NCBI RefSeq assembly: GCF_004123845.1 | Contig: NZ_NBDP01000016.1 | Span: 1 to 64,000, forward strand | DNA: 64,000 nt | Source of the DNA: Allobosea sp. Tri-44 | GTDB lineage: Bacteria > Pseudomonadota > Alphaproteobacteria > Rhizobiales > Beijerinckiaceae | Direction: 5' to 3' | Shown here: positions 28,346 through 50,032 of the stretch, one piece after another | Layout: each line of letters begins with the position of its first letter | Position numbering within the stretch: the first letter of the stretch is position 1 | Program-made: the position numbers and the translations under genes | Notes under the pieces: model-generated | Told to the model about the DNA's origin: nothing | Seen by the model: only the letters and a program-made list of their open reading frames with translations | Databases searched by the model: none

Positions 28346-28477
28346 GAGCTCTTGGCCTCGTAATGCCATGCCGGTTCTGAGGACATGATCCTAGCGAGGA
28401 TCATTCCGCCGACAGCCCGGTCCGACGACTGAGCCGCTTGGGCTTGTGGACTAAGCCGTTCTGGGCAGAGGGCAGGC

Positions 28478-31345: not shown

Positions 31346-31560
31346 CCGCCCTCGCTCTATGCGGCATCGGCTGTCGCGAGAGGAGGGTACCGCTCGGCCA
31401 CGTCGAAGCAGGCTGGGCATTCGAGGTAGCCAAGCCGGCAAGGAGGGCGCTTCACCACCTTTTGGGCAGTCCCTATGCCCAGAGCCGCAGGCGCGATGAC
31501 GCCGCTAGACTTCGTACCGTGAAGATGCGGCCGGGCGATCGCCAGCGGAGGCTCGATGAC

Positions 31561-32934
31561 ATGCAGCGCGCGGCCAGGATCGGCTGGGTGTTCGGCCTCC
31601 GGAGGCAGGACAGGCCCGGCGGCAAGCCATGGGCGGGCATGAGAGCGCGTCTTCAAGCGATGCTCGATCCGGCGCTGTCCTTCGGCGACCAGGCGCTGTC
31701 CAGCGCCTGCAATTTCCTGACGACCATCCTGCTCGCCCGCGCGCTGGGCCTCGAGGCCTTCGGCCTTTACACGATGGTCTGGCTCGCGCTGTATCTCGCG
31801 ATGAGCCTTCAGCTCGGCCTCATCGTCAGCCCGATGATGAGCATCGGCACGAAAGAGCAGGGGGCTGAGGCCGAGGCCTACTACACCGTCGTCTTCCTCC
31901 ATCAGGCCGGCTATGTCGTCGTCGCGACCGGCGCGATCTTTGCCGCTCTGATGCTTGCAGCGGGCGCCGCCTCGCCTCTCGCCGAGGTCGCATTGCCGGG
32001 TTCGATGGCCGCAGCCTCCTATCTGACGCAGGATTTCCTCCGGCGTTATTTGTTCGCCCGCCGACGGCCTGCGGGAATTCTGCTGATCGACGCCATCAAT
32101 CAATTCCTGAAGCTCGGGGCTCTCGCAGTCCTCTGGCAGGCAGGGATGATCAGCGTCGCCAATGCCCTATGGGCCGTTGCTGGTGCAGCGGCGGTCTCGA
32201 CGCTCTGCGGCCTGACCCTATCGGGGCCTCTCCTGTGGAAGCCGCAAATCCTGGCCAGCGTCACAGGGCGGCAATGGCGGTCGGCCCGCTGGCTCGTGCT
32301 CACCGGCTCCGTGCAATGGGTGCTCAGCTACAGTGGCCTTCTGGTGACGGCCGGCCTATTCGGGCCGAAGGTACTTGGTGCGCTGAGGGCGGCGCAGAGC
32401 CTGCTCGCCGTCCTCAACGTCGTGCGCGAGGCGCTGGAGAACATCGTCCCGCCGATGGCCGGCAAAGCCTTCGCACAGGGCGGCATGCCCGGTCTTCACA
32501 GAACCCTCGGCCGCGCCATGTTGTTCGCCGGCCTGACCGGTGCCGCGGTGGTCCTCGGCCTCGGGCTGTTCGGCCCCTGGCTGCTGCACCAGCTCTACGG
32601 CGGGGAGATCCTCGAATTCGACTGGGTGATCATCTGGTATTCCTTCGCATTTCCGATGGCGCTGATGAGCCTGGTCCTTGGCTGCGCCTTCCGGGCGCTG
32701 GAGCGTACGCGGCCGGTCTTCATCGCAGCGCTCGTTGGAGGCTGCTTCAGCCTGCTGGCGGTCTATCCGGCCGCGCTCTTCTTCGGCGTGGCGGGGTTGA
32801 TCGCCGTGACGCTTCTATCGGAGCTCGCTGCTCTGCTCGTCCTGGTGATGCTCGCGCTCCGGATACCGGGTTTGCTGGCAAGCCGGCCGATCGCTTCGGC
32901 GCGCGCGCGCATGGTGACGGCGTCGTCGCCATGA
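31561..32934 (+). CDS. Polysaccharide flippase (Wzx-like, MATE/MOP superfamily)
   Basis: A polytopic protein of 457 residues with about twelve membrane helices. The opening MLDPALSFGDQALSSACNFLTTILLARALGLEAFGLYTMVW is typical of lipid-linked repeat-unit exporters in EPS loci. It should flip the undecaprenyl-linked repeat across the inner membrane for the polymerase encoded divergently at 28478. GGAGG lies 9 bp before the ATG at 31561. An internal ATG at 31639 would remove 26 basic residues and is the alternative start. The stop overlaps the PPTase start (ATGA), linking glycan export and NRPS activation on one transcript. Confidence 0.87.
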   Translation: MQRAARIGWVFGLRRQDRPGGKPWAGMRARLQAMLDPALSFGDQALSSACNFLTTILLARALGLEAFGLYTMVWLALYLAMSLQLGLIVSPMMSIGTKEQGAEAEAYYTVVFLHQAGYVVVATGAIFAALMLAAGAASPLAEVALPGSMAAASYLTQDFLRRYLFARRRPAGILLIDAINQFLKLGALAVLWQAGMISVANALWAVAGAAAVSTLCGLTLSGPLLWKPQILASVTGRQWRSARWLVLTGSVQWVLSYSGLLVTAGLFGPKVLGALRAAQSLLAVLNVVREALENIVPPMAGKAFAQGGMPGLHRTLGRAMLFAGLTGAAVVLGLGLFGPWLLHQLYGGEILEFDWVIIWYSFAFPMALMSLVLGCAFRALERTRPVFIAALVGGCFSLLAVYPAALFFGVAGLIAVTLLSELAALLVLVMLALRIPGLLASRPIASARARMVTASSP

Positions 32935-33629
32935 TGCCGCTACCGCCCTCTCAGGTGCATCTCTGGTGCTGTCGTGTCGATTGCAGCGCGGCAGAGGCGG
33001 CGGAGCGGCGCGGGATTCTCTCCGATGACGAGCGCACCCGTGCCGACCGCTTCCACGACACGAAAGCACGGGTCGCATTCGTCGTGGCGCGGAATTGGCT
33101 GCGGCGCGTCCTTGGACTCTACACGCCCATCCCGCCGCCGCAGATCCGCTTCGGTGAAACAGCGTTCGGCAAGCCGTTTCTTGCGAACGATGGGGACGGA
33201 TCGCGTCTCGCCTTCAATCTCAGCCATTCCGGAGAACTCGCGATCGTCGCGGTGGCGGACGGGATTTCGGTCGGCATTGACATAGAGCGCATCCGGCCGA
33301 TTTCGGCCGACCTGTTGGCGGGGTGCCTTGCGCCGCGGGAACTCGCAAGCCTTTCGGCTCTGGCGCCGACGCTGCGAGAGGAATCCTTCATTCGCTGCTG
33401 GACGCGCAAGGAAGCCTGCCTGAAAGCGATCGGCATCGGCCTCAACGGCTCGCCGGCAAATTTCGAGGTTTCGTTCGATCCGTTCGGGGCGCGGCTTTTG
33501 ACGGTAGGGTCCGACCCAATCGAGGCCGAACGCTGGCAGCTCGTCGATCTGGAGCCGGCACCAGGCTATTGCGGCACATTGGCTGCGCGGCAGCGCGGCT
33601 GGTCGCCCATTTGGATGGCTCGGCCGTAA
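32931..33629 (+). CDS. Sfp-type 4'-phosphopantetheinyl transferase
   Basis: A 232-residue enzyme that transfers phosphopantetheine from CoA to carrier-protein serines. The pseudo-dimeric fold shows the Mg-binding signature SVGIDIERIRP (Asp117, Glu119) and FIRCWTRKEACLKAIGIGL (W157-x2-KEA with Glu161), as in Sfp, AcpT and EntD. Immediately downstream, convergent and 26 bp away, is an NRPS-PKS line with three carrier domains (predicted Ser602 of the A-PCP protein; Ser957 and Ser2572 of the hybrid), which this enzyme presumably activates. It is translationally coupled to the flippase gene. Confidence 0.92.
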   Translation: MMPLPPSQVHLWCCRVDCSAAEAAERRGILSDDERTRADRFHDTKARVAFVVARNWLRRVLGLYTPIPPPQIRFGETAFGKPFLANDGDGSRLAFNLSHSGELAIVAVADGISVGIDIERIRPISADLLAGCLAPRELASLSALAPTLREESFIRCWTRKEACLKAIGIGLNGSPANFEVSFDPFGARLLTVGSDPIEAERWQLVDLEPAPGYCGTLAARQRGWSPIWMARP

Positions 33630-33655: not shown

Positions 33656-35917
33656 TCAACTCCGATCCTGGCGCGTGGCTTCGACGATCCGTTCAGCCAT
33701 AGTCCTTGAGCCGGCTTCGGAGAACGCTCCCTCGTGACCTTCGCCATCGACGGCGAAGCAGGGCGTGTCGGGGGCGAGATGGCCGACCCAGCCCAGGGTG
33801 GCGTCCGGTGGCCAGCCGGGCGGGATCGCGCCGCTCCGGAAGACCAGCACGCGGCCGCCATAGCTCGGCAGCGCATAGCGTTGGATCAGGGCCTCGAGTT
33901 CATCGGTCGTCCGCCAGAAATCGGCCTCGTCGATGGCCTCTTCTTCCGGGCGCCAGAAGAACAGCCGCTTGGCCTGCCGGATGGCTGCGGTTGATTGCAG
34001 CCAGAACGACATCCGCGTCACAAAGCTCCGCGGCCCGGCCTGCCAGAACCGCTTGGCGAAGCGGCCTGCACGTCTCAGCCTGAAGCGCAGGCGCGCGCTG
34101 TAGGGCTGTCGCCGGAAATAGCCGGGTGCCCAGCAGTCGATCAGGACCACGAGATCGACCGACTTCCCGCTCGCTATAAGTTGCTTCGCCACTTCGACGG
34201 CGATCACGCCGGATCTACAGAAGCCCGCGAGCCGGTAGCGACCCTCCGGCTTGGTCGCGATGATCGCCTCGCAATAGGCTGCTGCGAGCTGCTCGATCGA
34301 GCTCGGCGCCGCGCCGTTCACCAGCGGATCGAGCAGCTGCAGGGCGGCAAAGGGCTGATCGGGCCCCAGCTCATGCGACAACGGCCGGTACAGCCTCAGA
34401 TTATGGGCGGTATGGTTCAGTGCGAACAAGATCGGCTGCGTGCCGGCCTGCTGTAGCCAGGTCCGGCGCAGCGCCGTCGCATCGATTACAGGTGGTGCCG
34501 CCGGAGTAGCCGGCAGCCAGAGTGGAGAGGCGATCGGCAAGGAGGTTGGTGCGGGCCGCGGCAGCCGCGCGGTCGGGTTGGCGACGAGCGCCTCCGCCAG
34601 GTTTTCGAACTGCGCCGCAAGTTCGCTTGCGGTCGCTTCGTCATAGAGGTCGCGATGATACTCGCAGGTGAGGCGCCAGCCTTCCTCGCGCTCGACGAGG
34701 ATGAAGTTGAGATCGTAGAGCGCGCCGGGCAGAGGCGAGGGAATTCCCGACAATTGGAAGCTGTCATTGGCGAGTTCGCCGATGAAGGCGCGCTGGACGA
34801 TGAAATTGATCGAGATCGGCGGTCGGTCGCCGTTGCTCGGCAGCAGTGCTGCGAGCCTGCCGAACGGCCATTGATGATGATCGACCGCCTCCTCGAACGT
34901 GTCGCGGGCTGACTGACAGAGATCAAGGAAACTTTGCTCCTCGGAGACCCTGGTCCGCAGCACCAGCGTGTTGACGAAGGGACCGACGATCGCCTCCAGC
35001 TCGACATCGTCGCGGTTAGCCATCTGCGTGCTCAGCACGATGTCGGAGGCACCAGTGCGCTGCCGAATTAGGGTCAGGAGAACGGCGTAGGCCGCTGAAA
35101 AGAAGGTCGTACCCTCCCTGCGAGCCAGATCGGCCAGCCCTGAGGTCAAGGCGCGCGGAAGCAGCCGTGAGAGCGAGGCGCCGTTCGTGCTTCGCGTCGA
35201 AGGCTGCTGGCGATCGCCCCGCACTTCGACGATGGGCAGATCGGCGAGCTGGCGCTGCCAGTAAGCTTCTTCCCGCGCGAGCCCGCCGCCGGCCATGCCG
35301 TCATGGCTTCCCTCGGCGAAGTCTGAATATTGGAGAGGGAGCTCGGCGAGGACCGGTTCGCGGCCTCGGCCGAGCGCCTGATAGGCCGCGACGAAATCCT
35401 TGGCGATGAGGCCCATCGACCAGCCGTCGCTGACGATGTGGTGGGCGACGACCAGGATCACAGCCTCGGCGCGGCTCTTGCGCAGCAATGTCGCCCGCAG
35501 CAGCGGAGCTTCGCCAAGATTGAAGCGTGTGCATGCCTCACCTTGGGCGATGCGATCAGCCTCCCTGGTCCGATCCGCCTCAGGCAGGCCGGACAGGTCG
35601 ATCTCTGGCAGCTTGAAAGCAACCTGTTCGGCGATCGCCTGGACCGGGCGGCCATCCTCCAGCCGGATCGCCGTCCGCAGGGATTCGTGGCGGCTGAGGA
35701 TCGCCTGGAACGCGTCCTGCGCCAGGGACGCGTCCAGATGCCCGCGGATCCGCCATTTCACAGCGATGTTGAGCGCCGGCGTGCCCGGATCCTTGGCGTC
35801 GATCTCCCAGTAGCGCTCCTGTGCCGACGAGCACCGCGCCGTCGCGAGGATATGATCCGGTTCGTGGATATGGGGTTCGGGTTCGCGCGTGAACTGGTTT
35901 GCCATGGCCTCGTTCAC
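33656..35917 (-). CDS. NRPS termination protein: condensation domain plus thioesterase
   Basis: A 753-residue protein. Residues about 25-450 form a condensation domain with active-site HHIVSDGWSM (His159-His160, Asp164) and late DFAEG/NFIVQR motifs. After a Pro-rich linker, residues about 490-750 form an alpha/beta-hydrolase thioesterase. Its nucleophile motif GFCRSG places Cys567 where most thioesterases have Ser, with Asp594 (LIDCWAPG) and His728 (GEGHEG) completing the triad. There is no adenylation or carrier domain, so the C domain must either condense the chain with a free amine/alcohol or act within release. A GTG start overlaps the stop of the hybrid gene by 4 bp (GTGA), preceded by AGAGAAGG. 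Confidence 0.92.
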   Translation of the reverse strand: MNEAMANQFTREPEPHIHEPDHILATARCSSAQERYWEIDAKDPGTPALNIAVKWRIRGHLDASLAQDAFQAILSRHESLRTAIRLEDGRPVQAIAEQVAFKLPEIDLSGLPEADRTREADRIAQGEACTRFNLGEAPLLRATLLRKSRAEAVILVVAHHIVSDGWSMGLIAKDFVAAYQALGRGREPVLAELPLQYSDFAEGSHDGMAGGGLAREEAYWQRQLADLPIVEVRGDRQQPSTRSTNGASLSRLLPRALTSGLADLARREGTTFFSAAYAVLLTLIRQRTGASDIVLSTQMANRDDVELEAIVGPFVNTLVLRTRVSEEQSFLDLCQSARDTFEEAVDHHQWPFGRLAALLPSNGDRPPISINFIVQRAFIGELANDSFQLSGIPSPLPGALYDLNFILVEREEGWRLTCEYHRDLYDEATASELAAQFENLAEALVANPTARLPRPAPTSLPIASPLWLPATPAAPPVIDATALRRTWLQQAGTQPILFALNHTAHNLRLYRPLSHELGPDQPFAALQLLDPLVNGAAPSSIEQLAAAYCEAIIATKPEGRYRLAGFCRSGVIAVEVAKQLIASGKSVDLVVLIDCWAPGYFRRQPYSARLRFRLRRAGRFAKRFWQAGPRSFVTRMSFWLQSTAAIRQAKRLFFWRPEEEAIDEADFWRTTDELEALIQRYALPSYGGRVLVFRSGAIPPGWPPDATLGWVGHLAPDTPCFAVDGEGHEGAFSEAGSRTMAERIVEATRQDRS

Positions 35918-38900
35918 CTTCTCTCGCGCTGTGAGACGGCACTCGGCTCACCTGGCTGCGCGCCATCGCGCGGGCGCCGCCACGGCCGCTTCCAGAACGT
36001 CGCGGCAGGGGCGCTGACTTCAGAGATGGCCTCGTCGGGAAGCGCCGCCGCGACGGCAGCGATCGTCCGGTTCCGGAAGAAATCCCGGGCCGCGACCTTG
36101 AAGCCTTCGCGACGGGCGCGGCTGGTGATCTGGAAGATGCTGAGGGAATCGGCGCCGAGGTCGAACAGATCGTCGTCGACGCCGATATCCTCGCGGCGCA
36201 GCACCTCGGCCCAGATGCGGATCAGGGTCTCCTCGACGGAGGTTCGCGGCATGGCCTTGTCAGCCTTCGCCGGCGCGCTCTGGGCATCAGGCGCCGGCAG
36301 CGCGGCGCGATCGAGCTTTCCGCTCGGGTTCAGCGGCAGGGCCGGCAGGCCGACCCAGGCGGTTGGGACCATGTAGTCCGGCAATTCCTGCGCTAGCGCA
36401 GCCCGTAATTCGGCCGGCGGCGGACTGTCCGCACCGGTGACATAATAGCAGACCAGCCGTGCCTCGCCGGGCATGTCCTCGCGCAGGATCACGGCGGAGA
36501 CGATGCCGGCCTTGCGGGCGAGGACGGCCTCGATCTCGCCGGGCTCGATGCGGAAGCCGCGCAGCTTCACCTGATGGTCGAGGCGCCCGAGATGCAGGAT
36601 GCGGCCATCGGGAAGATATTTGGCACGATCGCCGGTGCGGTAGGCCTTGGCGCTCGTGGCGGGATCGACCGGATTGGCGATGAAGCTCGTCGCGGTGAGC
36701 TTCGGATTGTTGGCATAGCCGCGCGCCAGGCCTGTACCGCCGATCAGAAGTTCGCCAGGGATGCCGACGCCGACCGGCTCGTTGTTGCCGTCGACGATGT
36801 AGAACTGCGTGTTGGCGATCGGCAGGCCGATCGTGACGACCTCGTCCTCCGGCTGAATGCGGGCGACCGAGGACCAGATCGTGGTCTCGGTCGGGCCGTA
36901 CATGTTCCAGAGTTCGCCGCCACCTTCGAGCAGCTTGCGCGCAAGGTCGAGCGGCAGCGCTTCGCCGCCGCAGAGCATGCGCAGGCCCGGCCGCGAGCGG
37001 AAGCCGGCTTCGAGCAGCAGGCGCCAGGTCATTGGCGTCGCCTGCAGCACGCTGGCGCCACTCTGCTGCAGCCGTGCCAGCAACTCGGCGCCGTCCTTGG
37101 CCTCGTCCGCGGTCGCGATCGCGATCCGGCCGCCCTGGATCAGTGGCAGCAGCAGTTCCAGCGCGGCGATATCGAAGGTCACCGTCGTGACGGCGAGCAT
37201 CGTATCCGAGCTGGCAAAGCCGGGCTCGCGCGCCATCGCGAACAGCAGATTGGCCAGCCCGCCATGGGTGACTTCGACGCCCTTCGGCGCTCCGGTCGAG
37301 CCCGAGGTGTAGATCACATAGGCGAGGTGACTGGGCGCGATCGTCGTCGTCCTGATCCCGGCGAGGTTGGCCGTGGTCTGGTCGACATCGATCAGCATGA
37401 CGCTCTCGTCCGGCTCGACGATGGCCGGGTGGAGCGGGCCGGCGGTCAGGACAGCGACGGCCTCGGAGTCCCGCAGGATCCGCTGGATGCGCGCTTTCGG
37501 CATGACGGGATCGAGCGGCACATAGGGGAAGCCGGCCTTGAGGGCTCCCAGCATGCCGGCAACGAGCGCCGGCGAACGTTCGATCAGCAGGCCGATGCGG
37601 CTTTCGGGTGCATCGACACGGGCCGTCAGCTCGGCCGCGATCCGGTCGGCCCAGGCGTTCAGAGTGGCATAGGAGAGCTGCTGGTCGCCGCATGAGACGG
37701 CGATCGCCTCGGGCTGCTGATGAACCTGCCGTTCGAAGGCCTGGATCGCGCCGTCGTCGAGTTGGAGCGCAACCTGCGTGTCGTTGATCTCGGAGACGAG
37801 GCGCTGGCGCTCGTCGCCGTCGATCAGCGGCATCGCTGCGATGATCGTGTCGGGGTTGGCGACGAAGGCGGCGAGCAGCGTCCGGTAATGGCCGAGCCAG
37901 CGGTCGATGGTGGCCGCGTCGAAGAGATCGGCGCCATAGCAGCAGTCGATCCGCAGTCCCTCGTCGGATTCGCCGATGTTGAAATAGAGATCGAAGGTCG
38001 AGAACGCTTTCGGGTTAGGCTCGACACTTGCCTTGATATCGGGGCCAAAATTGAGATTGCCGGCGAGCCGCTCAAGGTTGAACTGCACCTCGACAAGCGG
38101 CAGCCGTCCGGACACCGGCGGGACACGCAGCCGCTTCAGCAGCGCGCCGAGCGTGAAGCTCTGATGGTCGTAGGCATCGAGAACGAGGCGCCCGACCTTG
38201 TCGAGATGGCTCGAGAACGGCTCGGCCGGATCGATCCCGCCGCGGATCGGCAGGAAGTTGACGCAGTGGCCGACCGGGGAGGGACCTTCGAGCAGAGATT
38301 GGCCGGCAGCGGGAACGCCGATGACGGGATCGCGCTGGCCGGAGAGCCGTAGCAGCAGCACCTGGAAGGCGGTGAAGAGCGTTGCGAAGAGCGTCCGCCG
38401 ACGTTTGGCGCCCGCCGCCTTCACCTTGCGATAGAGCTCGGCGTCGATGAGGCTCGTGCGCGTGCCGCCACGGAAGCTGCGCTGAGCTTGCCGCGGCCGA
38501 TCGGCCGGCAGTTCGAGCGGGGCCGGAAGCTCCGCAAACATACCGGTCCAGTAGGTCGCGGCTTCTGCCGTGCGCGCGTCCTGATGGGTCAAAGTCGCGT
38601 ATTCCGCAAACGGCATTGGCGCCGTCAGAGAGTCGACGCCGGAGCGGTAAGCCGTCGCGATCTCGTCGAGCAGGACGTTTGTCGACCAGCCGTCGCAGAC
38701 GATGTGATGGGCCGACAGGATCAGCACATGCTTTTGCTCGGCGAGCCGGATGATCTCGGCTTCCGCCACCGGCCCCTGCACGAGGTCGTAGGGGCGGCTC
38801 GCATAGGCTTCGATCCGGGTCTGCAAGGTGGCTTGCGGATCGGGCTCGCTGCGCAGGTCGCTGATGGCGACCGGGAAGGCCCCCGACGGAGAAATCCGCA

Positions 38901-41900
38901 TCGTCTCGCCGTCAGGCGAGAACCGCGCGTTGAGGATCGCGTGCCTCGCCGCGACCTGCCTGACCGTCTCGGCGAGGCGGAGCGCATCAATGTCGCCTTC
39001 GAGCGTCAGGCTGACGGATTCGTTGAAGGCTGCGCTGGCCTCGGGGCCGGTCTGGTCCGACAGCCAGATTTCGCTCTGGGCTTCGGTCAGAGGAAGCTCG
39101 ATCTCCGGTGGCCCGATGGGGGTATCCGACGGACGGATTTCGGTTGTCCCTCCGGGCAACATGCCGTCCCGGCGCATGAGGTCCAGGCTGTCCTCGAAGG
39201 CGGCGATGATCGCTGCGATCTCGGCATCGCCGTGTTGGGTCGTCAGGAAGCAGGGATAGTGCTCCTGGATGAAGATGCCGCGCGCCCGCAGATGGTAATG
39301 CAGCAGGCTGCCGAGCCGGTGGTCGCGCCCAGGCTTGAAATAGGCGACGCTGCCATAGCTCTCGATCGGCACGTCCCAGCCGACCCGTGCGAAGGCGCGC
39401 CGTAGCCCTTCGACGAGGCTCTGCATGCGCTGTGTCAGCGCCTCGTTTAGCGCCGGTCCCTTTTCCTTGACGTGCCTGAGAACGGCGACCGTCGCGGCCA
39501 GTGCCAGCGGATGCCTGACGAAGGTTCCGGCGAAGAAGGTGACGCCGACCTCGGGCAGGCTGTCGTCGCCGAAGCTCCAGGCACCGCCGTCGAGCGCATC
39601 CATGAAGCGCGGAGTGCCCGCCAACAGGCCGACGGGCAAGCCGCCGCCGACGACCTTGCCGTAGGTCGCGAGGTCCGGCTTGATGCCGAGCAAAGCCTGC
39701 ACGCCGGCGGGATGGACCCGGAAGCCGGTGACGACCTCGTCGAGGACCAGCGTTGTGCCGGCTTGCTCGGTAATGGCGCGCAATTCCTTGAGGAAGGCGG
39801 CGGGGAGATAGCCCGGCCGGCGGCTCTGCACCGGCTCGACCAGCACCGCGGCGAGCTCATGCGCATGCTCGCGCAGCCAGGCGAGGCTCTCATCCGTGCC
39901 ATAATCCAGGATCGTCATGCGTCCGACCGCATCCGCCGGAATACCCGGTGCCGCGGGCACCGAGCGATGCTGCTCGCCGACCCCGCGGACCAGGACTTCG
40001 TCGAACTGGCCGTGATAAGCGCCGGAAAAGGCTACGATCCGGTCGCGGCCGGTGACGGTCCGGGCGACGCGCATCGCAGCCATCACGGCCTCGGAGCCGG
40101 TGTTGCAGAATGCGACGCGGGCATGGCCGGTCAATTCGCAGAACAGTTGCGAGGCCTCATGCGCGAGCGGCGATTGCGGCCCGATAGCGAAGCCGTCCTT
40201 CAGTTGGGCCTGGACCGCCTCGACGACGAAATCCGGTGCGTGCCCGAAGGCGGTCTGGCCGTAGCCGTTGACGAGGTCGATATAGGCGTTGCCGTCGACA
40301 TCCCAGATTCGGGCGCCCTTCGCCCGCGCGGAGACGATCGGGTAAACCATTTCCTTCCAGTCGGCGGCGAAGCCGGAGACGGTGCGCGGATCGGCCAGGA
40401 CCGGGCGGTGCTGGTCCGCGAGGCGCTTCGAGGTCGCGGTCTTGTCGACATAGAATTTCGTCAGCCGGGCGATATGCGCGCGCTGGGTTTCGGTGAGCGC
40501 CTCGTTGCCCGTGCGGATCAGCGGCTTGAACCGCGCCGTCGAGCTCGCGGCGGTGCTGCTCGCTGCAGCGTGCGGAGCAGGCGCTGGCTGGGGCTGAACC
40601 GCCGGCGCGAGAGGCAGGGCAGGCGATGGCTGCGCTGCGGTTGCGATGGCCGGCGCCACAGCCTGGCCGCTTAGGGCCTGGAGCTGACGCTCCATCAGGC
40701 GCGACATCACGTCGAGCTGCTCGCGCATCAGCGCGTCCAGACCCGAGCCGGCCGGCTGCGCGCTGGCGGCTGCGGCAGCGGTCGTGACGGGAGCCGGCAT
40801 GGCAGGCGAGGGCGCAACCGGCGCCGCCGCCTGAACGATCGCAGCCGGCTTCGGCATCTCCTGCGGGCAAAGCTCGGCGATGTGGCGCGTCACCTCGTCG
40901 ACGCTCGGGAGGTCGTCGAGCAGTTGCCGGAAGCGGATCTGGATGCCGAATGTCGTCTGGAGGCCCTGCGCGGCCTGCGTCAGCAACAGGGAGTCGAAGC
41001 CGAGTTCGAGGAAGCTGGCGCCAGTCTCATCCGCGCCGAAAGACCGCCCCGACAGGTTCTCGAAGATCGCTGCGACCCGGCTGCCTAGGTCCGAACGGTC
41101 CAGGGGGATGTCGGTGTCAGTCTGGCGGTCCATGGCCGGTTCCTGCTCGGATTGAGTGGGAAGAGGTTGAACGGCGGCGACCGCAGGCAGGCTCGATGCG
41201 GCGGAGGCCGCTACGGCGGGGGCCTCGACCCAGTGCCGGCTGCGTTCGAATGGGTAGGTCGGGAGCGATACGCGCGCCGGTTTCCCGCCGGCCTGGTAGG
41301 CCGACCAATCGGGCGTGATCCCTGTGGTCCAGAGGCGTCCAAGTGCGGCAGCGAGCATGCCCTCGGCATCGCCCTGTGCATCGGGCAGACAGGAGATGGC
41401 CGCCCGCCCGGCGCCGGCACCCTGCAAGGCGAAACTCGCCAGCGCGGCGCCGGGCCCCACCTCGAGCAATACCGGAGAAATGCCGCGTGCCAGGGTAGTG
41501 ATGCCATCGGCGAAGCGGACGGGTTCGCGTGCATGCCTCGCCCAATAGGAGGGGTCGGTCGTCTGTTCGGCGCTGGCCCAGTCACCGGTCACGCCCGAGA
41601 TGTAGGGCAGCTCGGGCGCCTTGAGGTGGATTGCCGCGACCGCCTCGGTAAAGGGCGCGATCAACGGCTCGATCATGCCGGAGTGGAAGGCATGCGAGGT
41701 CTGCAGCCGGCGATGGGTTACACCGCGCCGCGCCAGCTCGGCTTCCAGAGCTTCGATCGGCTCGAACGGGCCTGAGAGCACGCTCATCCCCGGCGCGTTG
41801 ATGGCCGCCACGCAGACGCCATCGTGCGCGAGCGCAGCGACCTCGGCATCGGGCAGGCGCACGGCCAGCATCGCGCCGCCTGGCAGTTCCTGCATCATGC

Positions 41901-43860
41901 GGCCGCGCTTGGCGACGAGCGACAGGGCGTCCTCGAGCGAGAAGACGCCGGCAAGGCAGGCGGCGGCGAATTCGCCGACGCTGTGGCCGATCATGGCGGA
42001 GGGCTGCAGGCCCCAGCTCATCAGCAGCTGCGCCAGCGCGTACTCGACTGTGAAGATTGCAGGCTGGGCGAGCAGCGTCGCCGACAGCCGCTCGGGATCG
42101 CCACCATTGCTCGGATAGAGCAGCTTGCGCAGGTCGAGCCCGAGCTCGGGCTTAAGCAATTCGCAGCACAGATCGATCGTGCGGCGGAAGACCGGCTCGC
42201 CCGCATAGAGCTCCCGCGCCATCTGCGGATATTGCGAGCCCTGTCCCGGGAACATGAAGACGAGATTGCCGGCGCCGGTCGCCGCGGCGGCGCGATCTGT
42301 GTTCTGCTTGCGCAGGGCGGCAGCGGCCTCGGTGTGGTTGCCGGCGACCACGGCGAGACGGTGAGGAAAGGGCCGTCGCCCCGTCTGCAAGGTGAAGGCG
42401 ATGTCGGCTAGGTTCTGCTCGGGGCGGGCTTCGAGATGTTCCGCAAGCCTGTCCCGCGCCGCACCAAGTGCCGCCGGGCTACGCGCTGATAGTGTCAGGA
42501 GTTGATTGCGGCGGGCCGGAGCCTGCGCTTCGTTCACAGGCGGCTGTTCCAGTACGAGGTGGACATTGGTGCCGCCGACCCCGAAGGCGCTGACACCGGC
42601 GCGGCGTGGCCCGTCCTGGCCTGGCCAGTCCTGCCGATGGTCGGCGATGAAGAACGGGCTGCTCGGCAGCTCAAGCGCCGGGTTAGGTTGGGTGACGTGC
42701 AGGCTCGCCGGCAACACCCCGCTCTTCACCGCGAGCGATGCCTTGATCAGCCCGGCGACGCCTGCCGCGGCATCGAGATGGCCGATATTGGATTTGGCCG
42801 AGCCGAGCGCGCAGAAGCCACGGTCCTCCGTCGTCAGGCGGAAGGCGGCGGTGAGGCCGGCGACCTCGATCGGATCGCCCATCGGCGTGCCGGTACCGTG
42901 GCATTCGACATAGCCGATCGAGCGCGCGTCGACATCGGCGGCAGCATGGGCCATGGCGATCGCCGCGGCTTGGCCGTCGACGCTGGGGGCGGTGAAGCCG
43001 ACCTTGCCCGCTCCATCATTGTTGACGCCGACACCGCGGATGACGGCGTAGATCTGGTCGCGATCCGCAACCGCATCCTCCAGCCGCTTCAGCACGACGA
43101 GGCCGGCGCCGCTGCCGAAGATCGTGCCATTGGCGCTGCTGTCGAAGGCGCGGCAATGACCGTCGGTCGAGACCATGCCGCCATCCTGGGCGAGATAGCC
43201 GCGCTGCTGCGGAAAGGTGATCGAGACGCCGCCTGCCAGCGCCATGTCGCAGCCATGGCCGAGCAGGTTCTGCACGGCCTGGGCGACCGCCAGCAGCGAG
43301 GTCGAGCAGGCGGACTGGACGGCGACGCAGGGGCCGGTCAGGCCGAGCTTGTAGCCGATGCGGGTCGCGGTGAAATCCGCGGCGGAGCCGACCAGCATCG
43401 GCAGGTTGCCGACCTGGAAACCCGAGGTGTAGTCGGCGATGGCCGCACGGTCGTGCAACAGGTTCTGCAGCAGATAGGTGCTGGAGGTGGCGCCGGCGAA
43501 GACGCCGATGCACTGGCCTGGCAATGCGGGGTCGTAGCCGGCGTCCTCGAGCGCTTCCCAGGCGCATTCCAGCAGCAGGCGCTGCTGCGGATCGGTGAGC
43601 GCCGCCTCGCGCGGCAGCATGCCGAAGAAGGGCGCATCGAACAGATCGACGCCGTCGAGGACGGGCCGCGCCGGAACGAAGTTCGGAAGCGCGCGCGTCG
43701 CTGCGTCGAAACTGTCCTCGAGCTCGGCGGGGGCGAACCGGGTGATCGATTCCACGCCATTGAGCAGGTTCCGCCAGAACGCTCCGATCGTCTGCGCGCC
43801 GGGAAACCGGCCGGCCATGCCGATGATGGCGATGGCGCGCTCGGGAAGCGGGTCAGTCAT
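35914..43860 (-). CDS. Hybrid PKS-NRPS: KS-AT-ACP-aminotransferase-C-A-PCP
   Basis: A 2648-residue megasynthase. Ketosynthase 8-435 (Cys185 in VQSACSTS, His321, His361); acyltransferase 533-870 (FPGQGSQ, Ser627 in GHSVGE, HAFHS at 723-727, the malonyl-type signature); ACP 925-998 (Ser957 in LGFDSL); Ala/Pro-rich linker 1003-1110; class III PLP aminotransferase 1115-1570 (Asp1374 in LDEVVTGFR, Lys1402 in YGKVVGGG); condensation 1585-2035 (HHIVCDGWS); adenylation 2045-2520 with pocket residues D-I-L-Q-L-G-M-I-W-K, nine of ten matching the glycine signature; PCP 2540-2605 (Ser2572 in LGADSL). There is no KR or DH, so the beta-keto group should be converted to a beta-amine by the aminotransferase, as in mycosubtilin MycA and microcystin McyE. 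Confidence 0.94.
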   Translation of the reverse strand: MTDPLPERAIAIIGMAGRFPGAQTIGAFWRNLLNGVESITRFAPAELEDSFDAATRALPNFVPARPVLDGVDLFDAPFFGMLPREAALTDPQQRLLLECAWEALEDAGYDPALPGQCIGVFAGATSSTYLLQNLLHDRAAIADYTSGFQVGNLPMLVGSAADFTATRIGYKLGLTGPCVAVQSACSTSLLAVAQAVQNLLGHGCDMALAGGVSITFPQQRGYLAQDGGMVSTDGHCRAFDSSANGTIFGSGAGLVVLKRLEDAVADRDQIYAVIRGVGVNNDGAGKVGFTAPSVDGQAAAIAMAHAAADVDARSIGYVECHGTGTPMGDPIEVAGLTAAFRLTTEDRGFCALGSAKSNIGHLDAAAGVAGLIKASLAVKSGVLPASLHVTQPNPALELPSSPFFIADHRQDWPGQDGPRRAGVSAFGVGGTNVHLVLEQPPVNEAQAPARRNQLLTLSARSPAALGAARDRLAEHLEARPEQNLADIAFTLQTGRRPFPHRLAVVAGNHTEAAAALRKQNTDRAAAATGAGNLVFMFPGQGSQYPQMARELYAGEPVFRRTIDLCCELLKPELGLDLRKLLYPSNGGDPERLSATLLAQPAIFTVEYALAQLLMSWGLQPSAMIGHSVGEFAAACLAGVFSLEDALSLVAKRGRMMQELPGGAMLAVRLPDAEVAALAHDGVCVAAINAPGMSVLSGPFEPIEALEAELARRGVTHRRLQTSHAFHSGMIEPLIAPFTEAVAAIHLKAPELPYISGVTGDWASAEQTTDPSYWARHAREPVRFADGITTLARGISPVLLEVGPGAALASFALQGAGAGRAAISCLPDAQGDAEGMLAAALGRLWTTGITPDWSAYQAGGKPARVSLPTYPFERSRHWVEAPAVAASAASSLPAVAAVQPLPTQSEQEPAMDRQTDTDIPLDRSDLGSRVAAIFENLSGRSFGADETGASFLELGFDSLLLTQAAQGLQTTFGIQIRFRQLLDDLPSVDEVTRHIAELCPQEMPKPAAIVQAAAPVAPSPAMPAPVTTAAAAASAQPAGSGLDALMREQLDVMSRLMERQLQALSGQAVAPAIATAAQPSPALPLAPAVQPQPAPAPHAAASSTAASSTARFKPLIRTGNEALTETQRAHIARLTKFYVDKTATSKRLADQHRPVLADPRTVSGFAADWKEMVYPIVSARAKGARIWDVDGNAYIDLVNGYGQTAFGHAPDFVVEAVQAQLKDGFAIGPQSPLAHEASQLFCELTGHARVAFCNTGSEAVMAAMRVARTVTGRDRIVAFSGAYHGQFDEVLVRGVGEQHRSVPAAPGIPADAVGRMTILDYGTDESLAWLREHAHELAAVLVEPVQSRRPGYLPAAFLKELRAITEQAGTTLVLDEVVTGFRVHPAGVQALLGIKPDLATYGKVVGGGLPVGLLAGTPRFMDALDGGAWSFGDDSLPEVGVTFFAGTFVRHPLALAATVAVLRHVKEKGPALNEALTQRMQSLVEGLRRAFARVGWDVPIESYGSVAYFKPGRDHRLGSLLHYHLRARGIFIQEHYPCFLTTQHGDAEIAAIIAAFEDSLDLMRRDGMLPGGTTEIRPSDTPIGPPEIELPLTEAQSEIWLSDQTGPEASAAFNESVSLTLEGDIDALRLAETVRQVAARHAILNARFSPDGETMRISPSGAFPVAISDLRSEPDPQATLQTRIEAYASRPYDLVQGPVAEAEIIRLAEQKHVLILSAHHIVCDGWSTNVLLDEIATAYRSGVDSLTAPMPFAEYATLTHQDARTAEAATYWTGMFAELPAPLELPADRPRQAQRSFRGGTRTSLIDAELYRKVKAAGAKRRRTLFATLFTAFQVLLLRLSGQRDPVIGVPAAGQSLLEGPSPVGHCVNFLPIRGGIDPAEPFSSHLDKVGRLVLDAYDHQSFTLGALLKRLRVPPVSGRLPLVEVQFNLERLAGNLNFGPDIKASVEPNPKAFSTFDLYFNIGESDEGLRIDCCYGADLFDAATIDRWLGHYRTLLAAFVANPDTIIAAMPLIDGDERQRLVSEINDTQVALQLDDGAIQAFERQVHQQPEAIAVSCGDQQLSYATLNAWADRIAAELTARVDAPESRIGLLIERSPALVAGMLGALKAGFPYVPLDPVMPKARIQRILRDSEAVAVLTAGPLHPAIVEPDESVMLIDVDQTTANLAGIRTTTIAPSHLAYVIYTSGSTGAPKGVEVTHGGLANLLFAMAREPGFASSDTMLAVTTVTFDIAALELLLPLIQGGRIAIATADEAKDGAELLARLQQSGASVLQATPMTWRLLLEAGFRSRPGLRMLCGGEALPLDLARKLLEGGGELWNMYGPTETTIWSSVARIQPEDEVVTIGLPIANTQFYIVDGNNEPVGVGIPGELLIGGTGLARGYANNPKLTATSFIANPVDPATSAKAYRTGDRAKYLPDGRILHLGRLDHQVKLRGFRIEPGEIEAVLARKAGIVSAVILREDMPGEARLVCYYVTGADSPPPAELRAALAQELPDYMVPTAWVGLPALPLNPSGKLDRAALPAPDAQSAPAKADKAMPRTSVEETLIRIWAEVLRREDIGVDDDLFDLGADSLSIFQITSRARREGFKVAARDFFRNRTIAAVAAALPDEAISEVSAPAATFWKRPWRRPRDGAQPGEPSAVSQRERR

Positions 43861-45883
43861 GAGAGCCGCCGATCGACACGCTTTCGGGGAATGGGGTGTT
43901 CAGGCCGCGTGAGCGCAATCCGCGCTCGCGCGCCGCGGCGAGGCTGCCGAGTACACTGGGCTTCTGCGGCGCCAGATGGCCGGCCAGGGCGCGCACATTC
44001 GGAAAGCGGTACAGGTCGACCAGGGCGAACCAGGGCAGGTCCCGGACCAGGCGCCGATGGAGCTCGGCGATCAGCAGCGAGTTGCCGCCGATATCGAAGA
44101 AGTTGTCGTCGATGCCGACAAGGTCGACCTGGCAGACTGCTGCAACGGCCTCCGCGAACCGCTGTTCCATCGGGTTGCGGGGCGCAGCGTAGGGGGCGGC
44201 GCTCTCCGGTCGCGCGCGCCCCGGCGCCGGTAGCGCGGCGCGATCGAGCTTGCCGTTCACGGTCAGGGGTATGTCGGGCACGAAGACGAAGGCCGCCGGC
44301 ACCATGTGATCAGGCAGGATCTCGCCGAGATGGGCCTTCAGCGCAGCCGGCGCGGGACGCTCTGTATTGCCCGCAACGAGGTAGCCGACGAGACGCTCGT
44401 GCGCGTCATCGGACCGGAGCAGCACCGCGGCCTGCCTGATCGCGGGATGGGACATCAGCGCTGTCTCGATCTCTCCGAGCTCGACGCGAAAGCCCCGGAT
44501 CTTCACCTGCTGGTCGGCCCGTCCGAGATACTCGTAGTCGTCCTCGTCGACCTGACGAGCGAGGTCGCCGGAGCGGTAAAGCCTGGCGCCTGGCTTCTGC
44601 GGGTGCGGCACGAAGCGCGTGGCGGTCAGCTCTGGTCTGTTCAGATAACCGCGGGCGAGCCCGGCTCCCGCAACGAAGATTTCGCCGATCTCGCCGCGCG
44701 GCACCGGCAGCATGGTCTCGCCATCGAGCAGGAGGATATCGAGGTCCGGGATCGGCCGGCCGATCAGGCTCGACCGCTGTTCGGTATCGGCGGAAGACAG
44801 GGGACGATAGCTGACATGCACCGTCGTTTCCGTGATTCCGTACATGTTGACGAGATGCGCATGCTCGCCGCGGCGCTGATACCAGCCGGCGAGGCGCCGC
44901 GGGTCCAGTGCCTCGCCGCCGAAGATGACGAGCCGCAGGGAAAGCCGGTCGCGCCCGCCGCGATCGTGATCGGAGCGATCGAGCGCGGCGAAGGCAGACG
45001 GCGTCTGGTTGAGCACCGTGACGCCCTCCTCGGCGAGCAGGCGCAGGAAGCCAACGGGGTCTCGCGTCGTGCTCTCCGGCACGATCACGAGACGCCCGCC
45101 GTGCAGCAGCGCCCCCCAGATCTCCCAGACCGAGAAATCAAACGATACGGAATGGAACAAGGTCCAGACATCGGCGGGTCGAAAGCCGAACCAGGCCTGC
45201 GTCGCGCTGAACAGCCGCGTAATGGCGGCGTGTTCGATGGCAACGCCCTTCGGCTTGCCGGTCGAGCCCGAGGTATAGATCACATAGGCGAGGTCATCGG
45301 CCGCCGCCGTACATCTCGGCGCCGGCTCATGCGTCGCGTGAGCCTCTTCGGAATGCTGCGGATCGAGCCGCTGCCGGCCGGCTGGCAGCCAGTCGAGATG
45401 TTCGGATGCGATGATGATCGAGGCGTCGGTATCCTCGACCATGAAAGCGAGGCGCTCGCCCGGATAGGCCGGGTCCAGCGGCAGATAGGCGGCGCCACTC
45501 TTCAGGATAGCGAGCAGCGCCACGATCAGGTCGAGAGAACGAGGCAGGCAAAGCCCGACGATCGTGCCTGGCCTTGCGCCCATGGCGGTCAGCCGGCCGG
45601 CCAGCCGCTCGGCGCGCTCGTCGAGTTCGGCATAGGACAGGCTGGCCACACCCAAGGAGAGTGCAACGGCGCGCGGTTGAGCAGCGACTTGCGCGGCGAA
45701 GAGGTCGACCACGGTCGTCGCTGCGGGTGGAGCGACTGCGATCCCGGACTTGTCGGCTCGCGGAGCTGCCGGCTGGACGGCACGTCGGCGCGAAGGTCCG
45801 GCGGGGTCGGGAGCAACGGACGGCCGTGACCCGCGACGAGCTGAAGGCTTGCGGGTGGCTTTCCTGTCGATGGTCTGTGTCAT
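43853..45883 (-). CDS. NRPS loading module: adenylation plus carrier domain (threonine predicted)
   Basis: A 676-residue protein. After a basic, Pro-rich N-terminus (1-50), residues about 55-555 are an adenylation domain: YTSGSTGKPKG (203-213), LFHSVSFDFSVWEIWG, NMYGITETTVH, YRSGDLAR, and Lys545 in NGKLDR. Residues 568-640 are a carrier domain with Ser602 (DIGGNSLL). The pocket residues read by eye are Asp249, Phe250, Trp253, Asn292, Ile320, Gly322, Met347, Val355, His356 and Lys545, identical to the published L-threonine signature DFWNIGMVHK. With no condensation domain it should start the line. Its stop overlaps the hybrid gene start by 8 bp. No clear ribosome site precedes the ATG. Confidence 0.92.
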   Translation of the reverse strand: MTQTIDRKATRKPSARRGSRPSVAPDPAGPSRRRAVQPAAPRADKSGIAVAPPAATTVVDLFAAQVAAQPRAVALSLGVASLSYAELDERAERLAGRLTAMGARPGTIVGLCLPRSLDLIVALLAILKSGAAYLPLDPAYPGERLAFMVEDTDASIIIASEHLDWLPAGRQRLDPQHSEEAHATHEPAPRCTAAADDLAYVIYTSGSTGKPKGVAIEHAAITRLFSATQAWFGFRPADVWTLFHSVSFDFSVWEIWGALLHGGRLVIVPESTTRDPVGFLRLLAEEGVTVLNQTPSAFAALDRSDHDRGGRDRLSLRLVIFGGEALDPRRLAGWYQRRGEHAHLVNMYGITETTVHVSYRPLSSADTEQRSSLIGRPIPDLDILLLDGETMLPVPRGEIGEIFVAGAGLARGYLNRPELTATRFVPHPQKPGARLYRSGDLARQVDEDDYEYLGRADQQVKIRGFRVELGEIETALMSHPAIRQAAVLLRSDDAHERLVGYLVAGNTERPAPAALKAHLGEILPDHMVPAAFVFVPDIPLTVNGKLDRAALPAPGRARPESAAPYAAPRNPMEQRFAEAVAAVCQVDLVGIDDNFFDIGGNSLLIAELHRRLVRDLPWFALVDLYRFPNVRALAGHLAPQKPSVLGSLAAARERGLRSRGLNTPFPESVSIGGSHD

Positions 45884-46046: not shown

Positions 46047-46904
46047 TCAGGATCTCAGCCGGAAGTAGAGCCCCGAATAGGTCTCGACATGGCATTCCGG
46101 ATGGAACGGCACGTCGAGCCTGCGTGCCTTCTCCCATGAATCCACGAGCTCATAGCCGAGCACGAGCAGGCCATCGATGAAGCGCGCACGTGCCGCGACG
46201 CTATAAGGACAGAACGAAACTTGGCCCGTTCGCGTGATGACGGACTGGATCGTGACGAAGGATTGTCGCATGTGGAGCGGCGTCCGCTGGACGATCACGT
46301 GCCGTGGACGTTTTCGCCATGCGTTCAGCCGCTCGTGTAGATAGTTTTCGGGCAGATATTGCAGCGAGCCAGCCGCGAGCAGGATGTCCATGCCGCAGCC
46401 GTCATCGACGGTGTTGGTGAAGCGCAAGCGCGGCGTGGGGTGCCGAGCCGATAGCGCCTGCCCGGCCTGGGTGATGTGGGGAAGGTCGAAGACGGTCCAG
46501 CGGAACTCGTCCGGGAAGGCGAGGTAGCGATCATACTGGCGAAAAGCGTGCCCGACATAGCCCCCCAGATCGAGCAGGGTCCGCGCGCCGTCGTCGAGCG
46601 CGCCGCGCAGCCACAACAGAACAGGGTACTCGGTCGCCGGCATCGGCTCGAAGCCGCCTGCCATGGTGGTGTAGTGGTCGATGTCGGCCATGGCGGTGTG
46701 GTCGAAGCCCGCGAGGCCGGCCGGAAGGGCGCGTTCGGCAGCCTGGAAACTGTCATATCGGCCGCTATTGCCGCAGTGATATCTGCCGGCGCGAAACCGG
46801 GCCTGGTAGAGCCGTTGGCGCAATTGGGCGATGCCGGGCCAACTGACCGAGGCCGTGCGGGCCGCCAGCCGCAGGTTTTGCTTCCAGGCGGCCATGACCG
46901 TCAT
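46047..46904 (-). CDS. Putative methyltransferase of the TIGR04325 (LIC12133) family
   Basis: A 285-residue protein with the TIGR04325 pattern: YDSFQAAERA, then LLDLGGYVGHAFRQYDRY (SAM-binding-like motif I), WTVFDLPHITQAGQ, LAAGSLQYLPENYL, VIVQRTPLH and LGYELVDSWE. The family is annotated as putative methyltransferase and is found in O-antigen and capsule clusters; no member's substrate is known to me. GAGG lies 8 bp before the ATG. It sits between the ExoF-like gene and the NRPS loading module on the same strand, 163 bp upstream of the latter, so it may act on the glycan or on the NRPS product. Confidence 0.82.
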   Translation of the reverse strand: MTVMAAWKQNLRLAARTASVSWPGIAQLRQRLYQARFRAGRYHCGNSGRYDSFQAAERALPAGLAGFDHTAMADIDHYTTMAGGFEPMPATEYPVLLWLRGALDDGARTLLDLGGYVGHAFRQYDRYLAFPDEFRWTVFDLPHITQAGQALSARHPTPRLRFTNTVDDGCGMDILLAAGSLQYLPENYLHERLNAWRKRPRHVIVQRTPLHMRQSFVTIQSVITRTGQVSFCPYSVAARARFIDGLLVLGYELVDSWEKARRLDVPFHPECHVETYSGLYFRLRS

Positions 46905-48759: not shown

Positions 48760-49048
48760 CAGCTCCGACCATCCTGCCAATCACATCTCGCAAGGAGACG
48801 CAGGCGAGGATGTCAGGACCGGCTCTGCTTTCCGCGTTGGCATTCAGGCCAAGGTGCGTCGCCAGGGGATTAATCCCATCGTCGAGCCCTGCGGCCACCT
48901 TGCGTCAGGACGCCAGGTCGCGTCGCAGGGGAAGTAGCCCTTCCTTGTTGCCGCCGGGAAGCTCACCTCCCAAAGCGTCCTTTGAGAATGAGGCGCTTGC
49001 AGCAAAGCTTTCTGCTCCATCCCGTGCACGATCCGGCGGAGTTCAGAT

Positions 49049-50032
49049 ATGCAGAAGCGCATTCTCGTCACAGGCGGCGCCGGCTTCCTCGGCTGCCATC
49101 TCTGCGAGCGCCTCGTCGCTCAGGGCCATCAGGTTCTCGCGGTCGACAACTATTACACCGGGCGCCGCGAGAATCTGAGCGCGCTTCTCGGCCAGCCTCA
49201 ATTCGAGGCGGTGAGGCACGATGTGACCTTCCCGCTCTATCTCGAAGTCGACGAGATCTACAATCTCGCCTGCCCGGCCTCGCCGGTGCACTATCAGCGC
49301 GATCCCGTGCAGACCACCAAGACGAGCGTGCTCGGCGCAATCAACATGCTGGGCATGGCCAAGCGGCTCGGCATCCCGATCCTGCAGGCCTCGACCAGCG
49401 AAATCTACGGCGATCCGGACGTGCACCCCCAGGTGGAGGATTATCGCGGGCTCGTCAGCATCAGCGGGCCGCGGGCCTGCTATGACGAGGGCAAGCGCTG
49501 CGCCGAAACGCTCTTCTACGACTACAAGCGGCGCCACGGCGTGGAGATCCGCATCGCGCGCATCTTCAATACCTATGGCCCCCGCATGAATCTCGAGGAT
49601 GGCCGCGTCGTTTCCAATTTCATCGTCCAGGCGCTGCGCAACGAGCCGATCACGCTCTATGGCGACGGCCGGCAGACCCGCGCCTTCTGCTTCGTCGACG
49701 ATCTGGTCGAAGGCCTGATGCGGCTGATGAACGTGACCCAGCCTTTGGACAGCGCGGTCAATCTCGGCAACCCCGTCGAGACCTCCATGGCCGAAATCGC
49801 GGACATGATCATCGCGCTCACCGGCTCGCGCTCGCAGGTCGTCTACAGGCCGCTGCCGCAGGACGACCCGCGCCAGCGCTGCCCCGACATCAGCAAGGCG
49901 CAGGAATTGCTGCACTGGGCGCCGAAGGTGCCGCTGCAGGAAGGGCTCGAGCGGACGATCGCCTATTTCGACGGCGTGCTGTCGAAGCTGCATGATCCGG
50001 TGCGACGGGTCGAGGTCGCGAGGGCGAGCTGA
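49049..50032 (+). CDS. UDP-glucuronate decarboxylase (UDP-xylose synthase)
   Basis: A 327-residue extended SDR. It has GGAGFLG (9-15), the UXS fingerprint [48 protein letters not shown] with Glu118, and catalytic Tyr145-x3-Lys149 (YDEGK). These match UDP-xylose synthases, which convert UDP-glucuronate to UDP-xylose in the cytoplasm. The product suggests that the exopolysaccharide contains xylose. It is divergent from the ExoF-like gene across a 289-bp promoter region. Its stop overlaps the GT26 start (TGATG). Confidence 0.93.

Follow-up and report, generated by a model that had tools for sequence, protein, structure and literature searches.

Introduction

Assembly lines that place an amine on the β-carbon of a growing chain are exemplified by MycA and McyE, in which a class-III aminotransferase stands in cis behind ketosynthase (KS), acyltransferase (AT) and acyl carrier protein (ACP) domains and is followed by condensation (C), adenylation (A) and peptidyl carrier protein (PCP) domains; their starters are fatty or phenyl-acyl groups. 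The same arrangement is encoded, within a line of three proteins combining nonribosomal peptide synthetase (NRPS) and polyketide synthase (PKS) domains, in the stretch of DNA studied here, namely the first 64,000 nucleotides of contig NZ_NBDP01000016.1 of Allobosea sp. Tri-44 (hereafter the window), which form the start of the contig in a 6.05-Mb genome whose nearest named relatives belong to Bosea. Unlike in MycA and McyE, the KS of this line appears to be fed by an aminoacyl-PCP carrying threonine, so that a β,γ-diamino unit is expected, only one further residue follows, and the setting is that of a polysaccharide locus.

The product of the zeamine line is a free polyamine. As described in PMC3547906, that line resembles ours in the threonine pocket DFWNIGMVHK, in a PKS step placed after NRPS modules and in a C domain without a module of its own (Zmn19), but it is longer, with six A domains, and has a ketoreductase instead of an aminotransferase in its PKS. 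Wzx/Wzy exopolysaccharide loci share with the surroundings of our line an initiating sugar transferase, a Wzz-kinase, Wza, a Wzy_C protein, epimerases and glycosyltransferases. They differ in that here NRPS-PKS genes and a 4'-phosphopantetheinyl transferase (PPTase) gene lie in the middle of the block, and that no Wzx could be assigned with certainty. The open-licence full-text literature, judged on titles and abstract openings, yielded neither an account of such a line within a polysaccharide locus nor a compound made by such a line, the latter in agreement with a preliminary description of the window made from the letters alone.

We propose that the genes encode a collinear NRPS-PKS line in a conserved Bosea exopolysaccharide locus, and that a 3,4-diamino-5-hydroxyhexanoyl-glycine unit may be handed by a cysteine thioesterase (TE) to the polysaccharide of the locus, a reading to which we give a probability of roughly 0.4. 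A lone secondary-metabolite cluster was rejected on the setting inside an exopolysaccharide block; judged from its neighbours, the line is part of that block and a member of a wider family tied to such loci.

Results

Layout of the assembly line

The three minus-strand genes (43853-45883, 35914-43860 and 33656-35917) overlap by 8 and 4 bases and have no internal stops. Since the reading frames are open, a broken line in the window was rejected. Pfam matches were obtained for A, A-C and PCP in protein 1, for KS, AT, two PP-binding domains, class-III aminotransferase, C, A and A-C in protein 2, and for C and thioesterase in protein 3. The resulting domain order is A-PCP, KS-AT-ACP-aminotransferase-C-A-PCP and C-TE, and the open reading frames and Pfam thus bear out the gene overlaps, coordinates and order given in the preliminary description. 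The two C domains of the line are the only ones in the genome. A scan with Rfam returned a tRNA and nothing else. The parts of the line are as follows.

43853-45883, minus: protein 1, A-PCP loading module; A1 44249-45700, PCP1 43973-44161; pocket DFWNIGMVHK (Thr, predicted)
35914-43860, minus: protein 2; KS 42694-43839, AT 41371-42261 (malonyl-type HAFHS), ACP serine codon 40990-40992
Second half of protein 2, minus: aminotransferase 39136-40503, C1 37798-39099, A2 36316-37737 (DILQLGMIWK; Gly, predicted), PCP2 36040-36228
33656-35917, minus: protein 3; C3 34562-35836 (HHIVSDG), directly followed by TE 33662-34471, without PCP
TE residues of protein 3, minus: Cys567 nucleophile (codon 34217-34219), Asp594, His728

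Substrate choice, extension and amination

The pocket codes were read at motif-anchored positions, which we take to correspond to the ten pocket positions of GrsA, and are DFWNIGMVHK for A1 and DILQLGMIWK for A2. In the literature the first is a threonine code (PMC12283262, PMC3547906) and the second a glycine code (PMC12283262). A1 and A2 are accordingly predicted from their pockets to activate Thr and Gly, the same assignments that had been made earlier from codes read by eye. The AT of protein 2 carries the motifs GHSVGE and HAFHS, the latter being the malonyl motif noted before. Further residues that we presume to be catalytic are Cys185, His321 and His361 of the KS, Ser957 of the ACP, Lys1402 of the aminotransferase and Ser2572 of PCP2 in protein 2, together with Ser602 of PCP1 in protein 1, and both C domains have their presumed active-site motif (HHIVCDG, and HHIVSDG in C3). 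The earlier statement that every catalytic motif is in place thus holds for the KS, AT, ACP, aminotransferase, PCP and C domains; it fails at the end of the line, where the TE nucleophile is Cys567 instead of serine and protein 3 has no PCP.

The class-III aminotransferase (PF00202, residues 1170-1489) stands in cis after the ACP and matches, over residues 1123-1572, the solved domain of mycosubtilin MycA (6kfm; E 5e-118, PDB sequence search). Relatives were collected by scanning named genomes with an aminotransferase alignment; the best 80 of 239 confirmed stretches were retained as family loci. Lys1402 lies in the motif TYGKVVGGG, is present in all real family rows aligned (one row being an antisense reading frame) and is taken by us to be the lysine that binds pyridoxal phosphate. 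These features agree with the MycA/McyE-type amination suggested previously, and transamination of a β-ketoacyl-ACP is the predicted function of the domain. In nine relatives (L006, L007, L067, L090, L094, L099, L127, L129 and L133) an A-PCP unit is fused immediately in front of the KS, in support of the threonine-first order and beyond the evidence of the gene order. The order Thr, β-aminated malonyl, Gly, as originally put forward, is therefore supported by the pocket codes, the MycA-like aminotransferase and the nine fusions.

Condensation domain and cysteine thioesterase of protein 3

In protein 3 the C domain ends at about residue 452 and the TE starts at about residue 483, with no PCP motif in the linker, and the A and PCP domains that a standard terminal module has between C and TE are absent. 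For want of both, the idea that C3 is an ordinary condensation domain adding a third residue was rejected. The nucleophile of the TE, within GFCRSG, is Cys567; Asp594 follows 27 residues later, and His728 is near the end. In an AlphaFold model of protein 3 (mean pLDDT 82), Cys567 comes after the strand 560-566 and Asp594 after the strand 586-593.

The NRPS thioesterases of ObiF (obafluorin) and SulM (sulfazecin) likewise use cysteine as nucleophile. In ObiF and SulM the TE comes after a PCP, whereas none precedes that of protein 3. According to PMC11298585 and PMC6668435, the catalytic Asp of ObiF and SulM lies one strand later than usual, at position II. Asp594 (Cys+27) fits position I, and Asp is found in this column in 70 of the 74 family TEs that could be read; a second candidate, Asp705 in a later loop, is nearly invariant among close relatives, but not in the Rhizobium rows aligned. 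The uncharacterised cysteine TE of AB3403 also has its Asp at position I, at the end of the next strand like Asp594. On this comparison the TE of protein 3 would not be filed with those of ObiF and SulM, as the place of Asp594 fits that of an ordinary TE, and a mechanism as in ObiF and SulM was rejected as a certainty because either Asp594 or Asp705 may be the catalytic residue. Fold searches with the model of protein 3 (Foldseek, VIA-align) gave lists filled by C domains, so that the TE part was barely tested; ObiF (6n8e) and AB3403 (4zxh) are the listed matches that span both C and TE.

The preliminary description had the chain joined to Gly and released. Joining to Gly is predicted here too, while simple release does not do justice to a cysteine TE in an apparently reduced terminal module whose protein contains no carrier domain.

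Probable reduction of the terminal module across the family

In some family members the third protein is C-A-PCP-TE and in many it is C-PCP-TE; Bosea, Paraburkholderia, Novosphingobium/Croceicoccus and Reyranella have C-TE, a form without PCP that Pfam confirmed in three lineages besides Bosea. The TE cysteine is kept in 74/74 readable family TEs, a count from which four of 78 third proteins without a readable TE (L075, L103, L126 and L132) had been dropped; at ten loci the third protein was not within reach as a protein of its own, one of them being L077, in which proteins 2 and 3 are fused. The second His in the C3 motif is missing from 44 of the 74 (HQ in 30, HS in 7, HA in 6 and HP in 1) but present in every Bosea-clade row that was read. 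Among 12 third proteins of the 'full' form, three have Gly codes, five have strings matching no code known to us and four have no code.

On the aminotransferase tree the C-TE label, assigned for third proteins by linker length and motif, needs seven changes, all forced by starred branches. Bosea groups with Labrys, which retains the PCP, with support of 94/95, just below the star, and L055 is placed among Bosea. Taken together, these patterns suggest that the terminal module no longer adds a residue, the C domain being a docking platform and the TE the working part. The probable direction is from full to reduced, on a tree without an outgroup root.

The exopolysaccharide block and its conservation in Bosea

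The line lies in a block (21369-62058) in which the flanking genes encode a Wza exporter, two nucleotide-sugar epimerases, a WecB/TagA/CpsF transferase, an initiating sugar transferase, a Wzz-kinase, a protein with Wzy_C and β-helix parts, methyltransferases, a PPTase and regulators. The Wzy polymerase assignment of 28478-31441 comes from PF04932, which scores above cut-off and is a family that also holds ligases. The PPTase (32931-33629) is expected to activate the carrier domains of the line. None of the 19 block proteins scanned (smaller reading frames of the block lay outside that scan) is a dedicated exporter of small molecules, a receptor or an immunity protein.

Ten other Bosea-genus genomes encode the three proteins of the line with 70-91% identity, which shows that the line is not a chance arrangement. 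Both pocket codes are unchanged at all ten loci; proteins 2 and 3 are open in 10/10 and protein 1 is whole in 9/10. Within 21369-55722 most genes recur, each in 8-10 of the ten genomes, the exception being the TIGR04325 gene (6/10 at 75% identity or more). Of 61 Bosea-genus genomes, 15 (counting that of the window) have protein 3 at no less than 75% identity, the next best match being 33%, and the same 15 have the Wzz-kinase at no less than 77% (next best 40%); four of these 15 were supplied by the Wzz search, whose result preceded the search of those genomes for protein 3.

Polysaccharide genes beside related lines beyond Bosea

Thirty genomes were hand-picked from the 80 loci, none of them Bosea, with one to four per genus and mostly long contigs. 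The 35 kb on either side of the aminotransferase contain a gene for an initiating sugar transferase (PF02397) in 21/30, one for a Wza-type exporter (PF02563) in 22/30 and either in 23/30, while gene density would lead one to expect about 1.1 and 1.2 genomes of 30, respectively. TIGR04325 genes are found within the same distance in 10/30 genomes versus 0.3 expected. As a control, only one of 16 other condensation-domain clusters of those genomes is within 35 kb of PF02397 or PF02563 genes, a rough comparison in that contigs of any length were admitted and most of the 16 are on contigs lacking such genes. The 16 are what remained of 19 clusters after removal of three parts of the Solimonas line (two of them read, that of G089 judged by its position beside Wza).

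In Solimonas flava the C-A-PCP-TE gene adjoins Wza and Wzz, on the other strand and about 13 kb from the KS gene, and in S. soli it adjoins Wza, the KS gene being on another contig. The polysaccharide neighbour class recurs in Alpha-, Beta- and Gammaproteobacteria.

Discussion

Proposed product and alternative explanations

According to the proposed mechanism, A1 would load Thr onto PCP1, KS-AT would extend the chain with malonate, the aminotransferase would convert the β-ketone to an amine and C1 would join the chain to Gly on PCP2, giving 3,4-diamino-5-hydroxyhexanoyl-glycine. Because protein 3 keeps no A or PCP of its own, C3 may mainly dock PCP2, from which the TE would take the chain onto Cys567. 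In the last and least certain step the TE would transfer it to a sugar hydroxyl or amine of the lipid-linked repeat unit or of the polymer. The steps as far as Gly are predicted from the domains; this hand-over is suggested by the polysaccharide setting, by the reduced release module and by the fact that the block proteins scanned include no exporter of small molecules.

Several observations weigh against this proposal. The covalent link between chain and sugar is one that we infer, no gene pointing to an acyl chain on sugar, and C3 retains HHIVSDG in Bosea and so may still condense something. In the family TEs the His column is not His in 7/74 and the Asp column is Asn in 4/74. The flippase call is weak: Pfam gave nothing for the product of 31519-32934, and phmmer matched it to none of the flippases of L004, L005 and L007 at a significant level, on which grounds it was rejected as a sure Wzx. 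In one Bosea-genus genome (G028, L031-L032) protein 1 has a frame shift immediately ahead of PCP1 and as a result aligns over only 561 of 676 residues; this may be a sequencing error or a real change. As linked genes are inherited together, the co-occurrence in 15/61 genomes argues for one block and not for one pathway. Outside Bosea, the 35-kb width was set after the distances had been read, and 7/30 genomes (G091, G092, G094, G095, G096, G098 and G101) have neither PF02397 nor PF02563 within it. Scanning 10-kb flanks with reference proteins gave polysaccharide-class genes at just 38/80 loci, nine of the 38 being of the Bosea clade, a result that counts for less since the flanks were short and the references few.

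The main rival is a free product made alongside the polymer. A linear acid, or a ring (a lactam, for instance, or a 1,4-diazepane-2,5-dione formed by the β-amine onto Gly), would be released by the cysteine TE and, co-regulated with the polysaccharide and unattached to it, would have its effect within the matrix or upon it, perhaps as a signal. A TE with Cys567, Asp594 and His728 is compatible with this, and cysteine TEs close strained rings in the synthesis of obafluorin and sulfazecin, as described in PMC6668435 and PMC11298585. The response regulators and histidine kinase of the block and the seven family genomes without close polysaccharide genes also speak for it. We nevertheless regard a free molecule as doubtful, although a serious contender, since the 19 scanned proteins include no dedicated small-molecule exporter, receptor or immunity protein, the sole exporter pair resembles a protein secretion system (TIGR01842), and the tie to polysaccharide genes across lineages would be left unexplained beyond co-regulation. 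Next among the rivals, C3 would be an amide or ester synthase that passes the chain of PCP2 to a soluble amine or hydroxyl (an amino sugar or a polyamine), as VibH, SgcC5 and presumably the stand-alone C domain of the zeamine line do, and the TE would only edit. HHIVSDG is indeed kept in Bosea with no PCP downstream, and the sequence matches of protein 3 in the PDB include HtmB2-CT, CmnI, SgcC5 and, weakly, the VibH-type amide synthase 1l5a, which we take to act on free acceptors. The stand-alone Zmn19 adjoins the PKS of the zeamine cluster (PMC3547906). With the second His gone in 44/74 family members, however, condensation by C3 is not the common function, while the TE cysteine is never lost, and we consider such a synthase unlikely.

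It is more improbable still that an ordinary antibiotic or metallophore cluster lies beside polysaccharide genes by accident. Hybrid NRPS-PKS lines commonly yield such compounds, and the seven of 30 genomes without polysaccharide neighbours would suit this view, but in Bosea and Solimonas the genes are interleaved, beyond mere adjacency, the same neighbour class returns in three proteobacterial classes, and other NRPS clusters of the same genomes are near such genes in just 1/16. We give hardly any weight to a decaying, functionless line in Bosea. The terminal module cut down to C-TE, leaving protein 3 without A or PCP, and the frame shift in G028 (a possible sequencing error) could be read that way; against decay stand the open frames of proteins 2 and 3 at 10/10 and of protein 1 at 9/10 other Bosea-genus loci, the unchanged codes, and the C-TE forms of Paraburkholderia, Novosphingobium and Reyranella, which point to a working state reached repeatedly.

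If the hand-over to the polysaccharide is true, the locus would make an undescribed kind of peptide-bearing polysaccharide, with assembly-line peptides and bacterial exopolysaccharides sharing a pathway, and the polymer would gain from its cationic diamino-acyl groups a charge and a chemistry beyond the reach of sugar enzymes. A wider form of the proposal is possible, and we hold it only tentatively: a patchy, widespread NRPS-PKS family would fix β,γ-diamino acyl-glycine units covalently to Wzy-type exopolysaccharides, with the cysteine TE as acyl transferase to sugar and the terminal module worn down to C-TE several times. The family offers a natural series of NRPS terminal modules (C-A-PCP-TE, C-PCP-TE and C-TE) in which, among those read, the TE cysteine was never lost.

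The wider family

By tblastn against plasmids, the family appears at about 44% identity, with the same three-part line in Rhizobium, Sinorhizobium, Loktanella, Rhodobacter and Jannaschia. Some members are on plasmids of nodule rhizobia, and a role in plant association could thus be asked about. Among those of the 80 loci with sufficient length, most have the same line; some have broken frames (L075 and L126) or split genes (Solimonas). The last pocket is of the type DILQ..., which we take to be the glycine pattern, in 66 of 82 proteins with a readable last pocket. The first differs by lineage, being the Thr code in Bosea, DFWNIGMVFK in Labrys and, in many, DAFWLGGTFK, presumably a valine code.

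Lines of Rhizobium, Sinorhizobium/Ensifer, Nitratireductor, Rhodobacterales, Labrys, Paraburkholderia, Reyranella, Novosphingobium and Solimonas share with that of Bosea the domain order, mostly the Gly second pocket, the cysteine TE and frequent polysaccharide neighbours. They differ in the varying first pocket (often DAFWLGGTFK) and in a third protein that often retains a PCP or a whole module. No product is named for them in the open-licence literature searched. In a prevalence draw, in which up to four candidates were scored per genome, the aminotransferase profile exceeded 700 bits in only 2/385 class genomes, one of them the window's own, and reached 450-516 bits in four more; the family is thus sparse and patchy.

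Other genes of the block

The genes around the line are listed below, with their conservation at other Bosea-genus loci.

21369-22181, minus: GT2 glycosyltransferase, one edge of the conserved block (9/10 loci)
27689-28369, minus: S-adenosylmethionine-dependent methyltransferase (8/10 loci)
28478-31441, minus: Wzy_C polymerase/ligase domain with C-terminal right-handed β-helix, 987 residues (71-83% identity, 10/10 Bosea-genus loci)
31519-32934, plus: hydrophobic membrane protein, candidate flippase (TIGR02900 only, E 6e-5)
32931-33629, plus: Sfp/HetI-like 4'-phosphopantetheinyl transferase (kept in 10/10 Bosea-genus loci)
46047-46904, minus: TIGR04325-family methyltransferase, frequent family companion (at least 75% identity in 6/10 loci)
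47425-48780, minus: Wza-type polysaccharide export protein (Poly_export, SLBB; 10/10 loci)
49049-50032, plus: nucleotide-sugar epimerase/dehydratase (10/10 loci)
50032-50823, plus: WecB/TagA/CpsF-family glycosyltransferase (8/10 loci)
50917-51927, plus: nucleotide-sugar epimerase/reductase (9/10 loci)
51976-53451, plus: initiating polyprenyl-phosphate sugar transferase (PF02397 and TIGR03025 above cut-off; 9/10 loci)
53542-55722, plus: Wzz chain-length regulator/tyrosine autokinase (same 15/61 genomes as protein 3)
56304-58760, plus: second β-helix protein (7/8 extended Bosea-genus loci)
58916-60655 and 60640-62058, plus: PrtD/HlyD-type secretion pair (ABC/HlyD), other edge of the block (8/8 extended loci)

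At the first edge of the block, two-component genes for a histidine kinase and three LuxR-type response regulators (22213-26047, minus) are present in 9 or 10 of the ten Bosea-genus loci. In G003, G015 and G020 the TIGR04325 gene is represented by just a version of 27-31% identity, and a search of G007 yielded none, while the NRPS genes stay; it is a possible site of variation in the product or the polymer. The β-helix protein of 56304-58760 is possibly the secreted substrate of the adjoining PrtD/HlyD-type pair.

Elsewhere, a fixed gene set stands beside the line in the Rhizobiaceae loci L113-L116, L121 and L125 and in Nitratireductor (L102, L104, L105, L110 and L118), comprising a GH16 hydrolase (not found in L125), a Wzy-like protein, a pyruvyl transferase (not found in L105), a GINT1-like protein and a DegT aminotransferase. 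On a plasmid of Variovorax sp. RA8 (L008) a related line at 8176-23649 has no annotated polysaccharide genes within the 33 kb displayed; a 2OG-Fe(II) oxygenase gene lies upstream of it and two TIGR04325 genes downstream. At L146 (G087 C14) a different NRPS of 1789 residues, with C, A and weak TE matches, adjoins a sugar transferase and a flippase-like gene, and is possibly a second kind of NRPS in a polysaccharide locus.

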